64,000 bases of DNA from NCBI GenBank assembly GCA_016183065.1, contig JACPFF010000011.1, forward strand, positions 1 through 64,000. The letters are read 5' to 3'. Below, piece by piece: positions 2,852 to 51,940 of this stretch. Origin of the DNA: Deltaproteobacteria bacterium (GTDB lineage: Bacteria; UBA10199; GCA-002796325; JACPFF01). Position 1 is the first letter of the stretch. The number at the start of each line of letters is the position of its first letter. A model generated the notes under the pieces. It made no database searches. It was not told where the DNA came from and worked only from the letters and a program-made list of their open reading frames with translations. A program made the translations under genes and the position numbers.

Positions 2852-3775
2852 TCAGGGGAGTGGGGCCCCACGACCCAGCGCGCACCGCGCGCGAGAGGGG
2901 GGGGACCCAACGGGCTTTGCCCGTTGGGGGGGCAGTGGCGACGACCGAGTTCGGGGACCCGCGAAGCGGGTGGACGAGGAAGTACCCGCAGGCGGAGCCG
3001 GAGGGTACGTGAGCCCCTGTAATAGTGGCGACGGTATGGTGAAATGGACGAGGTATTCCACATTGCCATCCGTACCCGTGATGGGTGATGTGATGGTGGC
3101 GCGATGTGTCCAGCCGAGCGCGGTTGCCGCCGAACAGACCTCGTGCACGGCGCGTTCCCTGGCCGCTGGATCACGGACAATGCCCCCTTTACCGACATGC
3201 CCTTTTCCAACCTCGAATTGCGGTTTGACAAGGGCGATCACCTCACTCTCGGCATTGAGCAGGGGAGGGAGGACGGGAAAAATCTTGGTGAGCGAGACAA
3301 ACGAGAGATCGAGTGTCACCACGTCGATCGGTTCGCCGAGGCGTTCCGGTGTGATGTGCCGCAGATTCGTCCGCTCCAGAACGACCACTCGCGGATCTTG
3401 CCGCAGCGCCCAGGCGAGTTGGCCATAGCCAACGTCGATCGCAAAGACCTTGCGCGCGCCGCGCTGGAGTAAGATCTCCGTAAATCCGCCGGTCGAGGCA
3501 CCGCTGTCGAGGCAGACCCGATCATGGACGGAGATCGCCCACTGGTCCATTGCATGGAGGAGTTTTATGGCACCGCGACTGACATAGGGGTGCGGTTTTT
3601 TCAGCACGGTGACGCATGCCTCTCTCGGCACACGATATCCTCCCTTCGTGACCGGTGTCGTGCCGACGCGGACATGGCCCGCTAAGATCAGTCCTCGGGC
3701 CTGTTCACGACTCGTGGCATATCCCGCATCGACCAAATACACGTCGAGGCGTTTCTGTTTGCTCTTCTCCTGCAT
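2852..3775 (-). CDS. tlyA: TlyA-family rRNA 2'-O-methyltransferase with inserted C-terminal tail
   Basis: The protein has an N-terminal S4 RNA-binding domain (KRLDVYLVDAGYATSREQA) and an FtsJ-like SAM fold with LDSGASTGGFTE, AIDVGYGQ and the catalytic-region LVKPQFE. TlyA proteins methylate ribose 2'-OH positions in rRNA and are often labelled hemolysin A. The start at 3775 has AAGAAGGAT upstream; further upstream ATGs are less likely. As read it is 307 aa, but 55 codons near the C-terminus come from a hairpin element (2859-3030). Without that 165-nt in-frame insertion the protein would be 252 aa and end FTIPSPLP at the same stop codon, which is the usual family length. Confidence 0.88.
   Translation of the reverse strand: MQEKSKQKRLDVYLVDAGYATSREQARGLILAGHVRVGTTPVTKGGYRVPREACVTVLKKPHPYVSRGAIKLLHAMDQWAISVHDRVCLDSGASTGGFTEILLQRGARKVFAIDVGYGQLAWALRQDPRVVVLERTNLRHITPERLGEPIDVVTLDLSFVSLTKIFPVLPPLLNAESEVIALVKPQFEVGKGHVGKGGIVRDPAARERAVHEVCSAATALGWTHRATITSPITGTDGNVEYLVHFTIPSPLLQGLTYPPAPPAGTSSSTRFAGPRTRSSPLPPQRAKPVGSPPSRARCALGRGAPLP
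2859..3030 (+). mobile_element. 3'-end hairpin element, copy A (inside tlyA)
   Basis: A G+C-rich insertion bounded by short direct repeats, AGTGGGG (2859-2865) and AGTGGCG (3024-3030). It starts with the palindrome GTGGGGCCCCAC. Several hairpins follow, including CCCAACGGGC-TTT-GCCCGTTGGG, ACCCGC-GAA-GCGGGT and GGC-GGA-GCC, with the core CGAGGAAGTACCCG before the last one. The end GTGAGCCCC is a rough inverted match to the start. It lies antisense to tlyA, four codons before the stop, and adds 165 nt (55 codons) without a frameshift. The opening block and end match the copy in ggt; the CGAGGAAGT core matches the tRNA-associated copies. Confidence 0.8.
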
Positions 3776-16414: not shown

Positions 16415-17014
16415 ATGAAACGGTCAATCATCTTTGCTTCGACGAATGCACACAAGTATCGAGAGCTGGAGTGGCTCTTAGGCGAGGGCCCGTGGCGACT
16501 TGTACCGCTCGATGCGGCGTTGGTGAAGATCATGCCGCCGGAAGAGGGGACGAGTTTTGCCGAAAATGCCTGTGGCAAAGCAGAGGCTGTTGCACAGCAC
16601 CTGGGCAGCTGGGCCCTTGCGGATGACAGTGGGCTGGTGGTCGATGCTTTACAGGGAGCGCCGGGGGTCGTTTCTGCCCGATATGCGGGACTTGCACAGG
16701 ATGCGACAGCCAATAATCTCCGGGTCTTGTGCGATTTGATCAATGTCGGTCCGGCCGAACGTGCGGCACGCTTTGTCTGTGTCTTGGCCCTTGCGCGTCC
16801 CGAGGCAATAACGCGGGTAATTGAAGGGCAATGCTGCGGGATGATCGCCATGATGCCGCGGGGCACTGGTGGATTTGGCTACGATCCCCTCTTGTATCTC
16901 CCTGAGCGGCAGTGTACCATGGCCGAATTGCCCCCGGCGGAAAAAAACCGTCTCAGTCATCGGGCCCGTGCCGCGGAAAAGATGCGCGAAATCTTGCTTG
17001 AAATCTGTGCATAA
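16415..17014 (+). CDS. rdgB: Non-canonical purine NTP pyrophosphatase (Ham1/RdgB)
   Basis: A 199-aa house-cleaning enzyme that hydrolyses dITP and XTP to monophosphates. SIIFASTNAHKYRELEWLL is the substrate-binding N-terminus (family consensus ATxNxxKxxE). TSFAENACGKAEAVA, LADDSGLVVDALQGAPGVVSARYAG, GFGYDPLLYLPE and LSHRARA complete the set. ATG 16415 gives normal length; the reading frame is open far upstream as an antisense shadow of the barrel gene. tRNA-Pro follows 24 bp downstream. Confidence 0.93.
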   Translation: MKRSIIFASTNAHKYRELEWLLGEGPWRLVPLDAALVKIMPPEEGTSFAENACGKAEAVAQHLGSWALADDSGLVVDALQGAPGVVSARYAGLAQDATANNLRVLCDLINVGPAERAARFVCVLALARPEAITRVIEGQCCGMIAMMPRGTGGFGYDPLLYLPERQCTMAELPPAEKNRLSHRARAAEKMREILLEICA

Positions 17015-17038
17015 GACGATAGTGAGTGCTGGCCACTT

Positions 17039-17113
17039 CGGGGTGTAGCTCAGCCTGGCTAGAGCGCTTGCTTTGGGAGCAAGAAGTCGGAGGTTCAAAT
17101 CCTCTCACCCCGA
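17039..17113 (+). tRNA. tRNA-Pro (anticodon TGG)
   Basis: Acceptor CGGGGTG pairs with CACCCCG. The D arm is GCTC-AGCCTGGCTA-GAGC, the anticodon arm CTTGC-TTTGGGA-GCAAG, and the T arm GGAGG-TTCAAAT-CCTCT with the usual wobble/mismatch. The discriminator is A. The last 15 bases plus two downstream (17099-17115) are repeated exactly at 17257-17273, on the far side of a hairpin element. Confidence 0.95.
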
Positions 17114-17273
17114 CATCGCTCGAGAGGGCCACCGGCCCTCTCGAGCGATGTCGCGTGTGGGCGGTCTGAACCGCCCGGTTTCGACCGAGGCCGGGGACCC
17201 ACGCGGCGCGTGGGTGGCCGAGGAAGTCCCCGCAGCGCGAGAGCGCGAAGGGGAACATCCTCTCACCCCGACA
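17114..17273 (+). mobile_element. 3'-end hairpin element, copy B (after tRNA-Pro)
   Basis: Directly after the tRNA comes a perfect 17-bp stem with loop ACC (17114-17150). A second G+C hairpin follows, then the core with hairpins CCCACGC-GGC-GCGTGGG and GCGC-GAGA-GCGC around CGAGGAAGTCCCCG. The unit ends with a 17-bp exact copy of the tRNA 3' end, ATCCTCTCACCCCGACA (17257-17273), 158 bp from the original. The core matches copies A, E and H, while stem sequences differ and stay complementary. Transcribed with the tRNA, it would be a folded 3' trailer. Confidence 0.8.
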
Positions 17274-17511
17274 CCCATTCAGACATCTTGGATATTCCGT
17301 GGCGTTTTGTTGCTCGTTCGCCCCGTATTCGGCCATTCAGAAATTGCACCCATTCGCCCGGCGAGTTGTCTCTGGGGTTGATCATGAGGGATTTTTGGAT
17401 CCACGACATCATCGGCATCGCCGGCAGACCAGAAACAATATGCTCGTGAACTTCCGGCTGGTCATCATGAGTAATATCTGGTATGGACAGCCTGTCTGGA
17501 GTGCTGTTCCT
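17274..17511. other. Gap between element B and the HEPN gene, no gene supported
   Basis: A 238-bp region of lower G+C with short open frames on both strands but no start with a ribosome-binding site and no recognisable protein. It may contain the promoter of the HEPN-MNT pair and remnants of earlier insertions at the tRNA-Pro locus. Confidence 0.4.
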
Positions 17512-17898
17512 ATGCGAACCGATGATCTCATTGCCTTTTGGAAGAAAAGTGCAGCGCGCGATAAAAGGACCTCGGACGATCTCCTTCAAACCAAAAACTA
17601 CGTCGGTTGCCTGTTCTTTTTGCATCTCTATCTGGAAAAGGTACTCAAAGGGCTGGTACAGACGGTGACGGGAAAAACACCGCCCTACTCACACGATCTT
17701 CTTGTGCTAGCGCGGCTCGGCGGCTTATCATTGGCTAAAGAGCAGGAGGAATGTTTGGCGACGATCAATACCTTCAATATTCGGGCGAGATACGCCGATT
17801 ACAAATTCGCTTTTTATAAAAAGGCAACGCGGGCATTTACAAAACGCTATTATCTCGTGGCGGAGGATCTCTACCAATGGTTTTTAAGCCATTACTGA
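17512..17898 (+). CDS. HEPN-domain protein (putative HepT-like toxin)
   Basis: A 128-aa all-helical HEPN protein: FWKKSAARDKRTSDDLLQTKNYVGCLFFLHLYLEKVLKGLV, then TPPYSHDLLVLARLGGL and ARYADYKFAFYKKA, the spacing of the PF05168 HEPN family. The classical RX4-6H RNase motif is not obvious, so the activity may differ from RNase HEPNs. It overlaps the nucleotidyltransferase gene by 22 bp, forming a typical HEPN-MNT module in which the nucleotidyltransferase neutralises its partner by AMPylation. ATG 17512 is chosen because the domain begins there; the frame is open upstream. Confidence 0.8.
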   Translation: MRTDDLIAFWKKSAARDKRTSDDLLQTKNYVGCLFFLHLYLEKVLKGLVQTVTGKTPPYSHDLLVLARLGGLSLAKEQEECLATINTFNIRARYADYKFAFYKKATRAFTKRYYLVAEDLYQWFLSHY

Positions 17899-18206
17899 CC
17901 AGAAATGAGATCCGGAAGGTTGCGGCTGAATTGCGTGCCGTGTTGAAAAAAGCGGGTATCCAAAGACCACGACTTATCCTCTTCGGGTCCTATGCTAAAG
18001 GCCGCCCTCGTCCTTGGAGCGATATTGATCTCTGTGTCGTCTCGAAGCAATTCGGGCGCGACGATTTTGCCGAGATGGCTCGATTGTCGATACTTGCCAA
18101 ACGTGTGAGTTATCTATTGGAAGTTCATCCCCTGCATCCGCAGGATCTCCAACGGGGATTACATCCTCTGGCTGACGAAATTAAACGGACCGGTGTAACC
18201 CTCTAG
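17877..18206 (+). CDS. MNT-type nucleotidyltransferase (putative MntA-like antitoxin)
   Basis: A 109-aa minimal nucleotidyltransferase. RLILFGSYAKGRPRPWSDIDLCVV carries the GS...DxD signature, with both Asp residues of the metal site (DID) present. An acidic/Glu-containing strand follows near residues 81-83 (LLEVH). In characterised HEPN-MNT systems this protein modifies tyrosine(s) of the HEPN partner. It begins inside the HEPN gene, so translation is coupled. The pair sits downstream of a tRNA gene carrying a hairpin element, a common setting for horizontally acquired genes. Confidence 0.85.
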   Translation: MVFKPLLTRNEIRKVAAELRAVLKKAGIQRPRLILFGSYAKGRPRPWSDIDLCVVSKQFGRDDFAEMARLSILAKRVSYLLEVHPLHPQDLQRGLHPLADEIKRTGVTL

Positions 18207-49225: not shown

Positions 49226-49227
49226 AT

Positions 49228-49299
49228 GCCCCTGTAGCTCAGTGGATAGAGCATTGGTTTCCTAAACCATGCGCGCAGGTTCGATTCCTGCCAGGGGCG
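49228..49299 (+). tRNA. tRNA-Arg (anticodon CCT)
   Basis: Acceptor GCCCCTG pairs with CAGGGGC. The D arm is GCTC-AGTGGATA-GAGC, the anticodon loop TTCCTAA gives CCT, and the T arm is GCAGG-TTCGATT-CCTGC. The first anticodon-stem pair is T-T, a mild oddity. Its last 15 bases, ATTCCTGCCAGGGGC (49284-49298), recur at 49438-49452 and 51924-51938, bounding two hairpin elements and a foreign island. Confidence 0.93.
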
Positions 49300-49452
49300 C
49301 CCAGAGGCCCGGGAGCCAACGGCTCCCGGGCCTCTGGGCGCCGGTGGCGGAAGGGAAGAGGCTCTTCGACGACCGAGGTCGGGGACCCGCCGAAGGCGGG
49401 TGACCGAGGAAGTACCCGGAGGCGGGAGCCGGAGGGTATTCCTGCCAGGGGC
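49300..49452 (+). mobile_element. 3'-end hairpin element, copy E (after tRNA-Arg)
   Basis: The unit starts with a perfect 20-bp stem (49299-49318 with 49322-49341, loop AAC) directly after the tRNA. It continues through a second hairpin, ACCCGCC-GAA-GGCGGGT, the core CGAGGAAGTACCCG, hairpin GGC-GGGA-GCC, and a 15-bp copy of the tRNA 3' end. It is almost identical to copy H (51783-51938; two or so substitutions in the core region) and has the same architecture as copy B, though its stem sequences differ completely. Confidence 0.82.
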
Positions 49453-50694
49453 ACCAGAAAGGAAAAGTCAAAGAGTTTTGGTTCGCCTCGCCTCGCTCGG
49501 CGACTAATTTGTATTCAATTTTGGGGGTAAAAACGAATTCACGATTTCGTAAAATATGGTTCGAGCCGATGTTTTTCAGAAATGTTGCCATTGCAGTCGG
49601 ATTGGGAGAGGAAAGCAGATTAGCGGCTTGATTTAAGGACTTTACGAACTCACGAGCCGGTTCGAGCCAAGACAATCCTTTTATCTCAAAATTGGTGATT
49701 TTTCCGTCTAGCGCAAGTTTTTGAGAAAGTAAACTTTGTTTTTTGGCGGCGTATTCTTCTGTGGATAAAGCGTTCGCTAAATAGACATCAAGTAGTTTTG
49801 CTAACTGCGCTTCCGCGCGCATTAATTGCTCTTTTAAAACAATAGCTTCACTTTGTGCGTCCTCTCTCGCTTTATTCTGTTTCCCGTCCAACGCCGCCAA
49901 GACTTTTTCGGTGTCTTGGCTCGACAGAGAAACTTTTTGAAGATAAGAAGCGATGTGCTCCATCAAGGCTTCTTCGCGGAGATAATGCTTTTCTTGGCAT
50001 GGCCCCTTCTTGCGAGTACAGCGATAATAGTTATGGCCTTACGAGGCGCATTTTAAGAGACCGAGAAAAGCAAAATTATTTTTTCTCACATGGTGGAATT
50101 TTCCACGCTTACTCATCACTTCTTGGCAAGAATCAAAAAGTTTCTTTGAGATTAACGGCTCGTGTTGTCCCTCATGAATTTCCCCACCATATTTCATTAG
50201 CCCCGTATAGAAAATATTTTGTAGAATGCTCTGCACATTGCTCAACGCTATTTCCTTACCGAGATTGCCACGCAAGTCGTGTTTCTTGCACCAATTTGCG
50301 AGAGAATGAAGCGTATATGCTCCGGTGGCATACATTTCAAACAATTTCTTTACTTTCGGTGCTTTCTCGCTATCAACATCAACCCCACGAGTTTTAGCGT
50401 TGTTTAGGTAGCCCACCGGAGCCAAGCCTGGCCATACGCCATTTCGTATTTTTTGCCGAAAACCTCGCTTCACATTCTCTCGCAAATTATCTACAAAATA
50501 TTTTGATTGACCAAAAGCGATATTGAGCATGAACAAGCCTTGTGGGGTTGCTTCAAACCAAAAGGTGGGAAATTTGAGGGATTTAATCAAGCCGCGATCT
50601 ACAAAATGAATAATCTTTCCCCCCATCAACAGAATTGCGAGCTAACCTGTCGGGGTGCCACGAAATGATCCCGTCTGCTTTTCCTCTCTCAATC
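49453..50694 (-). pseudogene. Broken large serine recombinase
   Basis: A decayed site-specific serine recombinase of the kind frequent in candidate-phyla (CPR) mobile elements. The readable parts, in order on the minus strand, are: the end of the resolvase domain (ERGKADGIISWHPDRLARNS), a frameshift in a run of six G (about 50622-50627), the recombinase domain (NLRENVKRGFRQKIRNG, APVGYLNN, SIL/FYTG), and an in-frame TAA at 50039-50041 with a small deletion in the zinc ribbon (LKCAS, stop, GHNYYRCTRKKGPC). A coiled-coil C-terminus (VLAALDGKQNKAREDAQ) then runs on toward the tRNA end. The catalytic N-terminus is missing, so it is inactive. Confidence 0.85.
49461..49592 (-). repeat. 132-bp inverted repeat, left arm (recombinase 3' coding end)
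   Basis: This encodes the recombinase C-terminal segment (TFLKNIGSNHILRNREFVF region). The same sequence with a few substitutions lies inverted at 50695-50826. Together the arms bracket the recombinase remnant. Confidence 0.8.
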
Positions 50695-50826
50695 AATGAC
50701 AACATTTCTGAAAAACATCGGCTCGAACCATATTTTACGAAATCGTGAATTTGTTTTTACCCCCAAAATTGAATACAAATTAGTCGCGGAGCGAGGCGAG
50801 GCGAACCAAGACTCTTTGACTTTTCC
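50695..50826 (+). repeat. 132-bp inverted repeat, right arm
   Basis: An inverted copy of 49461-49592. It replaces the position where the recombinase N-terminus should be, so the gene was truncated by a duplication-inversion or by recombination with a second element. A further 27-bp piece of the same sequence (AAAAACATCGGCTCGAACCA) recurs at about 50993-51012. Confidence 0.8.
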
Positions 50827-50834
50827 TATGTGGT

Positions 50835-50968
50835 GCAGTATTCTTGAGTTAGTCTGAACGCATTTCGCCGCTTGCGGCGGCGAGGAAGTCTCCCCGCCTG
50901 CGTGGCCGAAGCCACTTCGGCGAGGCGAAAGCCCGCGGAAATTCGGAAAGGCGGCGGAGCCGCACCGC
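50835..50968 (+). repeat. Hairpin element F (inverted pair with G)
   Basis: A 134-bp G+C-rich unit in an otherwise AT-rich island. TCGCCGC-TTGC-GGCGGCGA, the core CGAGGAAGTCTCCCCG, GTGGC-CGAA-GCCAC and GCGGC-GGA-GCCGC are successive stems. It shares CGAGGAAGT and the GGC-GGA-GCC hairpin with copies A, E and H. Copy G (51651-51784) is nearly identical in the opposite orientation; the pair brackets the lipoprotein-like gene. Confidence 0.78.
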
Positions 50969-51048
50969 TCGAAACCGCAAAAGAACCCGGAGAAAAACAT
51001 CGGCTCGAACCATATTTTGATTTTTGGGGAAGAAAATTTTTTAATCCT

Positions 51049-51600
51049 ATGAATAAGAAAAATATATTTTTTATTCTCTTCACAATTCTTGTTATTGGTG
51101 TATTTGGATGTTTCGCTTTTATTAAGAATCAAACGCCTACTCCACAGACACAGCAAGACGTCTTCTTTTCTCAAGAGGAGTGCGAACAAAAAACTGGAAA
51201 AACTTGTAGTCTCCAAATGTGTGATTATGTCCCGCCTGGAAAAACCTTTGAAGAAGTATGCGGAAAGGATTTCAAGAAAGGTTGGGTTCCACAAACCTCT
51301 GTTGTAACTAACCAGAACTCGACAAGCGAATCCGCTTGTCAAAGGCTTAATAACGAAATTGAGAATGACTTGACCAAAGCTAATTATTGTCAAAATGCCT
51401 CTGATTGTAGCGTCTTGGCTCTGGGAGGAAGCTATGTGGAATTTGGATGCTATCATTTTATTAATAAGGAAGTTGATAAAAATAAATTTTACGCAAAGAT
51501 GCAAATTTATACTCAACAATGTCGAGCGGCTATTGATAGGTGCGTCCCAGCTCCCAAGCCATCATGTGTTTCTAATAAATGCGCGTTCATAGATAATTAG
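51049..51600 (+). CDS. Foreign small Cys-rich membrane/lipoprotein-like protein
   Basis: A 183-aa protein encoded in strikingly AT-rich DNA. MNKKNIFFILFTILVIGVFGCFAFIKN is a signal anchor with a weak lipobox (VFGC). The rest is Cys-rich (EECEQKTGKTCSLQMCDYVPPGKTFEEVCGKDF, then CQNASDCSVLALG and CVPAPKPSCVSNKCAF). Base composition and style resemble CPR-bacterial proteins. No clear Shine-Dalgarno sequence; TTTTTTAATCC precedes the ATG. It is the only intact gene of the island, bracketed by inverted hairpin elements F and G. The function is unknown. Confidence 0.7.
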   Translation: MNKKNIFFILFTILVIGVFGCFAFIKNQTPTPQTQQDVFFSQEECEQKTGKTCSLQMCDYVPPGKTFEEVCGKDFKKGWVPQTSVVTNQNSTSESACQRLNNEIENDLTKANYCQNASDCSVLALGGSYVEFGCYHFINKEVDKNKFYAKMQIYTQQCRAAIDRCVPAPKPSCVSNKCAFIDN

Positions 51601-51650
51601 AGAACTCGTTTATTTATGAATTGCCGCCAAAAAAAAATTTGAAATTGTCA

Positions 51651-51784
51651 GCGGTGCGGCTCCGCCGCCTTTCCGAATTTTCGCGGGCTTTCGCCTCGCC
51701 GAAGTGGCTTCGGCCACGCAGGCGGGGAGACTTCCTCGCCGCCGCAAGCGGCGAAATGCGTTCGGACTGATTCAAGAATACTGC
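51651..51784 (-). repeat. Hairpin element G (inverted pair with F)
   Basis: An inverted copy of element F with only a few differences, including at the outer end (TTGAATCAGTCCGAACG against TTGAGTTAGTCTGAACG). Its outer end abuts element H at 51783. Confidence 0.78.
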
Positions 51785-51938
51785 GCCCAGAGGCCCGGGA
51801 GCCAACGGCTCCCGGGCCTCTGGGCGCCGGTGGCGGAAGGGAAGAGGCTCTTCGACGACCGAGGTCGGGGACCCGCCGAAGGCGGGTGACCGAGGAAGTC
51901 CCCGGAGGTGGGAGCCGGAGGGTATTCCTGCCAGGGGC
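51783..51938 (+). mobile_element. 3'-end hairpin element, copy H (right boundary of the island)
   Basis: A 156-bp near-exact direct repeat of 49297-49452, including the last 15 bases of tRNA-Arg (51924-51938). No tRNA body precedes it. With copy E it forms direct repeats 2,486 bp apart that flank the foreign island, as att sites or homologous-recombination substrates would. Confidence 0.83.
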
Positions 51939-51940
51939 GC

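Follow-up and report, generated by a model that had tools for sequence, protein, structure and literature searches.

The roughly 160 bp that follow the tRNA-Pro gene in the window, the 64,000-nucleotide stretch of DNA analysed here, are best explained as an rtT-type tRNA-trailer RNA unit whose core, element E, is a non-autonomous mobile structured repeat, a reading that we consider probable on balance. The unit is a real element, probably acting at the RNA level, and not a random scar, because it recurs at many tRNA genes and is built like rtT repeats. What is new is the E core within an rtT-type, tRNA-linked unit, found at many isotypes and in a phylum unrelated to E. coli.

The tRNA-Pro unit and the fold of its core

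The preliminary description had claimed that an intact tRNA-Pro is kept beside the element and that the end of the tRNA recurs downstream, and both points hold (Table 1). The 17-mer ATCCTCTCACCCCGACA returns without a mismatch at a spacing of 158 bp, where the chance recurrence of a given 17-mer within 160 bp is about 1e-8 in order of magnitude. The copy begins in the T-loop and thus comprises the 3' strand of the T-stem and the 3' strand of the acceptor stem, so that an exact 17-bp direct repeat of the tRNA 3' end flanks the element at both borders. Between the two copies lie a perfect palindrome, an inverted and diverged copy of the T-arm and acceptor strand, and, as the third part, a GC-rich structured stretch. 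The palindrome carries no T-run and is therefore not a canonical intrinsic terminator. The stretch between the 17-mers folds far better than its shuffled versions (z -7.6), as does the tRNA together with the unit (z -9.7). Searches of Rfam at gathering and relaxed thresholds returned the tRNA only, besides chance miRNA- and CRISPR-like matches. As had been noted before, the unit contains no integrase; the neighbouring genes are of the Ham1 family, HEPN and nucleotidyltransferase types. The latter two form a HEPN and nucleotidyltransferase (MNT) pair with a toxin-antitoxin-like layout at 17515-18206, on the same strand and directly 3' of the unit.

Table 1. Coordinates of tRNA-linked units and of one dispersed copy of E in the window
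Feature	Position	Strand	Evidence
Dispersed, non-tRNA copy of E, context ...GTGGCGA-E-CGTGAGCCCC...	2942..3007	+	84.9 bits (model R1)
Intact tRNA-Pro (anticodon TGG)	17039..17114	+	ARAGORN; Rfam RF00005, 67.5 bits
17-mer ATCCTCTCACCCCGACA, copy 1 (tRNA T-loop to 3' end)	17099..17115	+	Sequence repeat
Perfect palindrome, 20-bp arms, 3-nt loop; left arm starts within tRNA 3' end	17111..17153	+	
Inverted, diverged copy of tRNA T-arm and acceptor 3' strand, TGTCGCGTGTGGGCGGTCTGAACC	17149..17172	+	Inverted repeat I1, 76% complementary
GGTTT, counterpart of the T-stem/T-loop GGTTC that precedes E in other units	17177..17181	+	Sequence
Core element E of the tRNA-Pro unit	17182..17254	+	Model R1, 68.6 bits; covariation
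Copy 2 of the tRNA-Pro 3' end from the T-loop, ATCCTCTCACCCCGACA	17257..17273	+	Exact repeat
tRNA-Arg (CCT), second tRNA in the window with such a unit	49227..49303	+	tRNA call
tRNA-Arg unit: E (49370-49438), then 3'-end copy TTCCTGCCAGGGGC	49370..49452	+	91.1 bits; 14-nt cognate copy
tRNA-Arg unit, second copy (E 51856-51924), past the ~2.3-kb insert	51786..51940	+	86.4 bits

When the 166 bp after tRNA-Pro were compared with their own genome (1.97 Mb in 30 contigs, 89% complete), 45 matches were found, nearly all covering the same ~70 bp, which we call E. A covariance model of this core, R1, finds 102 copies in the genome. The element, ~73 nt long in the tRNA-Pro unit, comprises CGACCGA, an outer helix GGCC/GGCC, GGGG, an inner hairpin, GAGGAAGT, a CCCC/GGGG hairpin with a GNA/GNA internal loop, and a final A. 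Among 69 distinct sequences, 96.8% of the cells at paired positions are standard pairs and two-sided changes occur in 18 of the 19 pairs of the fold. The covariation score reaches 0.632 and falls to 0.06-0.09 once the partners are slid, on an alignment that was fitted to R1 and so favours the structure somewhat. The variety of individual pairs is visible in the raw sequences, for example as CCCC/GGGG, ACCC/GGGT and CCTT/AAGG. Conserved yet unpaired are CGACCGA, GAGGAAGT and the symmetric GNA/GNA internal loop, and the GAGGAA of E is likewise unpaired and conserved. Together, the sequence comparisons strongly support the fold of E.

Distribution of E at tRNA genes and elsewhere

The preliminary description had proposed looking for the same 3'-end duplication and hairpin unit at the other tRNA genes of the genome, and partial tRNA duplicates with an insert of the E family indeed occur at nine of its 39 tRNA genes. 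In the three trailer units, on the 3' side of Pro, Arg-CCT and Ser-GGA, the tRNA 3' end from the T-loop follows E at 0-2 nt. Four units, at Arg-TCG, Arg-CCG, Glu-CTC and Glu-TTC, lie upstream and are built around the D-loop: a 5' tRNA fragment up to the D-loop is followed by E, 6-7 nt more of the D-arm, a spacer of ~30-40 nt and the intact tRNA, with copy-to-tRNA distances of 129 (Arg-CCG), 129 (Arg-TCG), 131 (Glu-CTC) and 129 (Glu-TTC). At tRNA-Cys, E breaks the anticodon loop (CTGC-E-AAAACCG), and at tRNA-Leu an inverted generic copy sits inside the partial duplicate; there (C21:53888, L156) the duplicate comprises 32 nt of the 5' part, its anticodon arm cut by the inverted generic repeat. 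The other tRNA-Pro gene of the genome (C28:682) carries no unit. At 49300-51940 of the window, two tRNA-Arg(CCT) units flank an AT-richer insert of ~2.3 kb, which has inverted repeats inside it and a broken serine-recombinase gene (Pfam Recombinase, ORF 50039-50629).

Across the phylum set of 46 genomes, the phylum here being equal to the class, the R1 search finds E in 18; one relative carries the label 'Deltaproteobacteria' (L090). An exact-pattern search over 84,980 species, made to look for E beyond the phylum, gave a single true match, in a relative (82.7 bits), and all others scored 20.5 bits or less; two matches on viral contigs scored 12 bits or less. Of 56 copies inspected in relatives, 26 have a tRNA on the same strand no more than 200 bp away, with the copy just 3' of the tRNA in 24 cases and just 5' of it in two, a count that includes one case (L174) whose tRNA is truncated by the edge of the contig and was identified by eye. 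All copies at tRNA genes are in the sense orientation, and the isotypes include Glu, Gln, Arg, Ala, Ser, Leu, Pro, His and Asp. A typical trailer unit comprises the tRNA, a terminator-like hairpin, GGATGAGAACC, a hairpin, TGGTTC, E, and GAATCC with the acceptor 3' strand of the same tRNA, so that E usually interrupts the T-loop of a cognate copy of the 3' end. The longest match of this copy to its own tRNA has a median of 17 nt, versus 5 nt for the non-cognate tRNAs of the set, and in units with a cognate copy E mostly begins 54-89 nt from the tRNA end. In four of the 23 trailer cases measured (L161, L162, L164 and L222) the cognate copy is absent. One locus (L213) has an almost full-length tRNA copy upstream, its T-loop interrupted by E between GGTTC and GAATCC.

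The orthologous tRNA-Pro(TGG) genes show that units come and go: three relatives (G001-G003) have neither the 3'-end copy nor the hairpins, and a fourth (G004) has the copy with a decayed core. A 3'-end copy without hairpins, which the preliminary description had named as the case that would speak against it, was thus not seen in these relatives. Vertical inheritance of E by tRNA isotype was considered and rejected (identity 0.713 vs 0.712); judged from sequence, the isotype-independent similarity argues for spread over long residence at each tRNA.

Several variants accompany these units. Four loci (L162, L216, L226 and L235) have a complementary 5' leader and 3' trailer that would lengthen the acceptor stem by at least 10 pairs, in place of the trailer palindrome. 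Three trailer units (L173, L180 and L233) have no intact tRNA in front and are preceded by a short tRNA 3' end; two of them apparently follow the end of an ORF, an arrangement suggestive of an integrated element having come between the unit and its tRNA. A subfamily of E in one genome (G014; L169, L184, L215, L219 and L232) shares ...GATAACnnTAGTGTnGnCGA just 5' of E and TAACTnTA after it, a shared string that could possibly represent a promoter or leader context.

Away from tRNA genes, most copies in the genome of the window lie in the context given for the dispersed copy in Table 1; they are intergenic and often form tandem arrays. With respect to the adjacent ORFs they show no preference for either strand (22:21 upstream, 21:24 downstream), and E away from tRNA loci is therefore not restricted to strands that are transcribed. 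In two relatives (G010 and G016; L182, L225, L227, L228, L229, L231 and L236), copies of E occupy precisely the gap that separates a TGA from the following ATG, with the final A of E serving as the A of the ATG; by eye, the downstream proteins resemble MqnD, NadE and TrpS. In three ORFs, 72-nt copies lie in frame and free of stops (L217 415-486, L220 413-484 and L185 1501-1572), lengthening the products by about 24 residues. From these exact fills and in-frame insertions it follows that E moves or is copied.

Comparison with rtT and other repeats

Descriptions of the E. coli tyrT repeats go back decades, and we know of no agreed function for these repeats; their known relatives are found in gammaproteobacteria. 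The corresponding RNA, rtT or RtT, is Rfam family RF00391 (rttR/tpr, from the E. coli tyrT-tyrV operon; Bosl and Kersten 1991, as cited in PMC11623569 and PMC4986893). In Pasteurellaceae, RtT adjoins tRNA-Asn and tRNA-Lys genes, is described as freed during tRNA processing and has been given a possible role in amino-acid limitation (PMC4986893). RtT expression is reported in Thioalkalivibrio (PMC8092127), and rtT-like sequences are listed among the dispersed repeats of Enterobacteria (PMC2965389), so that both families are tRNA-linked as well as dispersed.

The likeness lies in the order of the parts: an intact tRNA, a spacer, an inverted T-arm copy ending in GGATGAGAA(C/G)C, a small hairpin, GGTTC, a structured insert, and AATCC with the acceptor 3' strand. 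In the E. coli tyrT-tyrV repeats, tRNA-Tyr and a spacer are followed by GGGGAAGGATGAGAAGC or GGGGAAGGGTGAGAACC, a small loop, GGTTCGA, the structured insert and AATCCTTCCCCCACCACCA, which gives the motif string GGGTGAGAACC/GGATGAGAAGC...GGTTCGA...AATCC+CCACCA; the annotated RttR RNA terminates exactly at the second CCACCA. A junction of the form GGATGAGAACC-hairpin-GGTTC-insert-AATCC is thus common to both groups. Its part before the insert, (G)GATGAGAACC-hairpin-GGTTC, is shared by E. coli and most of the relatives' trailer units, and the tRNA-Pro unit has it in a diverged form, GTCTGAACC ... GGTTT. Like RtT, the units are linked to a tRNA gene and close with the 3' part of that tRNA, repeated from the T-loop onwards. 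The junction also marks tRNA trailers with other inserts in phylum genomes without recognised E (L257, L258 and L260), one insert ending in GCGAATAATCC, much like E. coli. By type, the insert at L257 is E. coli-like, that at L258 is E minus helix A, that at L260 is an E variant with an extended outer helix, and that at L252 is degenerate.

Several features differ. The RF00391 model gave no match in the window at gathering thresholds, none on 16950-17500 at E<=10, and none at E<=1 for eight loci of relatives, whereas E. coli copies score 112-137 bits (control 137.5); conversely, R1 does not match the E. coli tyrT repeats. The units therefore fall outside RtT as that model defines it and resemble it in design. 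E and the insert in E. coli are dissimilar, and homology of the inserts is unproven. The palindrome is rooted in the tRNA 3' end, units occur at many isotypes, and some of them lie upstream, where E interrupts a D-loop or an anticodon loop. The tRNA-Pro copy, moreover, lacks CCA.

E also recalls other repeat classes. With REP/BIME sequences and RAYT-linked REPINs it shares a short palindromic form, a mostly intergenic location, ~100 copies per genome and frequent clustering; it differs in having no tie to RAYT, in its three-helix RNA-like fold with two-sided changes across the phylum, and in its tRNA-linked form. Rickettsia palindromic elements (RPE) are palindromic repeats inserted in frame within ORFs. 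The in-frame copies of E resemble them, as compared by description only, but the main habitat of E in relatives is the tRNA trailer and the lineage is unrelated. The islands of tyrosine integrases likewise carry a direct repeat of the tRNA 3' part from the T-loop, whereas the tRNA-Pro unit has no integrase, spans ~160 bp, encloses a conserved RNA fold and has counterparts with upstream 5'-part duplicates.

Origin and possible function of the unit

Were E simply a selfish, REP- or RPE-like palindromic mobile element, the tRNA units would be harmless insertions into duplicated tRNA pieces and the RNA fold would reflect hairpin recognition by a transposase. The 102 copies in one genome, the exact TGA-to-ATG fills, the 24-codon in-frame insertions, the presence and absence at orthologous tRNA-Pro genes and the isotype-independent similarity are all in keeping with this, but no mobiliser was found. 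A RAYT/Y1 transposase was considered for this role and rejected, being neither linked to nor correlated with E: Y1 transposases (Y1_Tnp, PF01797) occur in 38 of the 46 phylum genomes, with no match in the E-bearing G016, G036, G040 and G042, three of which are incomplete (82-83%), and a RAYT-like gene in the genome of the window (C2:1756, L057) has no E motif strings across the 3.3 kb around it. Hairpin loops as a general target fared no better, as 11 of 63 sites had stems of at least 6 against ~12% expected, which is not above the control. The junction shared with E. coli, the uniformly sense orientation at tRNAs and the junction units without recognised E would also be left unexplained, and we regard this account as unlikely, though worth keeping in mind. 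A scar of an integrative element is hardly credible by comparison. It would require an integrase-type insertion at the T-loop that brought its own tRNA 3' end and later shrank to 160 bp; the direct repeat from the T-loop to the 3' end does resemble a tRNA att core, the two tRNA-Arg units enclose an insert with a serine recombinase, and displaced units without an intact tRNA exist. The same core and junction nevertheless recur at many tRNAs and genomes at similar distances, the D-loop and anticodon-loop units upstream are impossible from a 3'-end att, and the unit holds no integrase remnant. Because the unit recurs, this scenario is already largely refuted; of the integrating-element reading in the preliminary description, the insertion-like geometry stands, and the lone 160-bp element gives way to a family of tRNA-linked units across the phylum.

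A further alternative, bistable control of tRNA maturation, strikes us as very unlikely. Here the inverted copy would pair either with the real T-arm and acceptor strand, spoiling the tRNA while the second 3' end captures the 5' strand of the acceptor, or with the decoy, leaving the tRNA free and allowing a three-way junction with E to form; E would sense a ligand or protein and decide. Consistent with it, the minimum-energy fold of the tRNA with its unit uses the acceptor strand of the second copy, the first being taken up by the inverted copy, in 18 of 19 exact-copy units, by 0.1-11.8 kcal/mol (6.7 kcal/mol for tRNA-Pro). These nearest-neighbour calculations leave out of account the tertiary structure of the tRNA, its modification and any folding during transcription. 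Also consistent is that the GAGGAA and GNA/GNA loop of E are conserved and unpaired. Such competition, however, arises from any direct-inverted-direct arrangement, and the D-loop units do not have this geometry. Cognate covariation of the inverted T-arm was also tried and set aside: beyond the universal GGAT/ATCC, cognate pairing is not significant within the phylum, that is, with E. coli left out (p=0.29). We give the competition low weight because the calculation ignores tertiary structure and folding order and because complementarity is not kept beyond GGAT.

Under the preferred reading, an rtT-type trailer unit with a mobile structured core, the unit would be transcribed as a tRNA trailer and would fold into a closed three-way junction of decoy T-stem, small hairpin and E. 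By analogy with what is reported for rtT, tRNA-processing enzymes may cut it out as a small RNA. E itself would spread as a non-autonomous mobile repeat, presumably best tolerated where a partial tRNA duplicate leaves the real tRNA intact. A more far-reaching proposal, which we offer as a speculation with a small chance of being right, is a widespread tRNA-trailer RNA module made of a junction and exchangeable inserts, with E. coli rtT as its sole described family, in which the decoy 3' end would control or compete with tRNA 3' maturation, E would sense or bind a protein, and the core would be mobile between tRNA genes.

With the same architecture and an independently conserved, covarying insert at many isotypes in an unrelated phylum, the question of rtT becomes a comparative one. 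The comparison separates the fixed parts, namely the junction, the cognate 3' end and the sense orientation, from the variable part, the insert. As a structured repeat that is both resident at tRNA genes and dispersed in the genome, E offers a natural test of whether such repeats start as by-products of tRNA.
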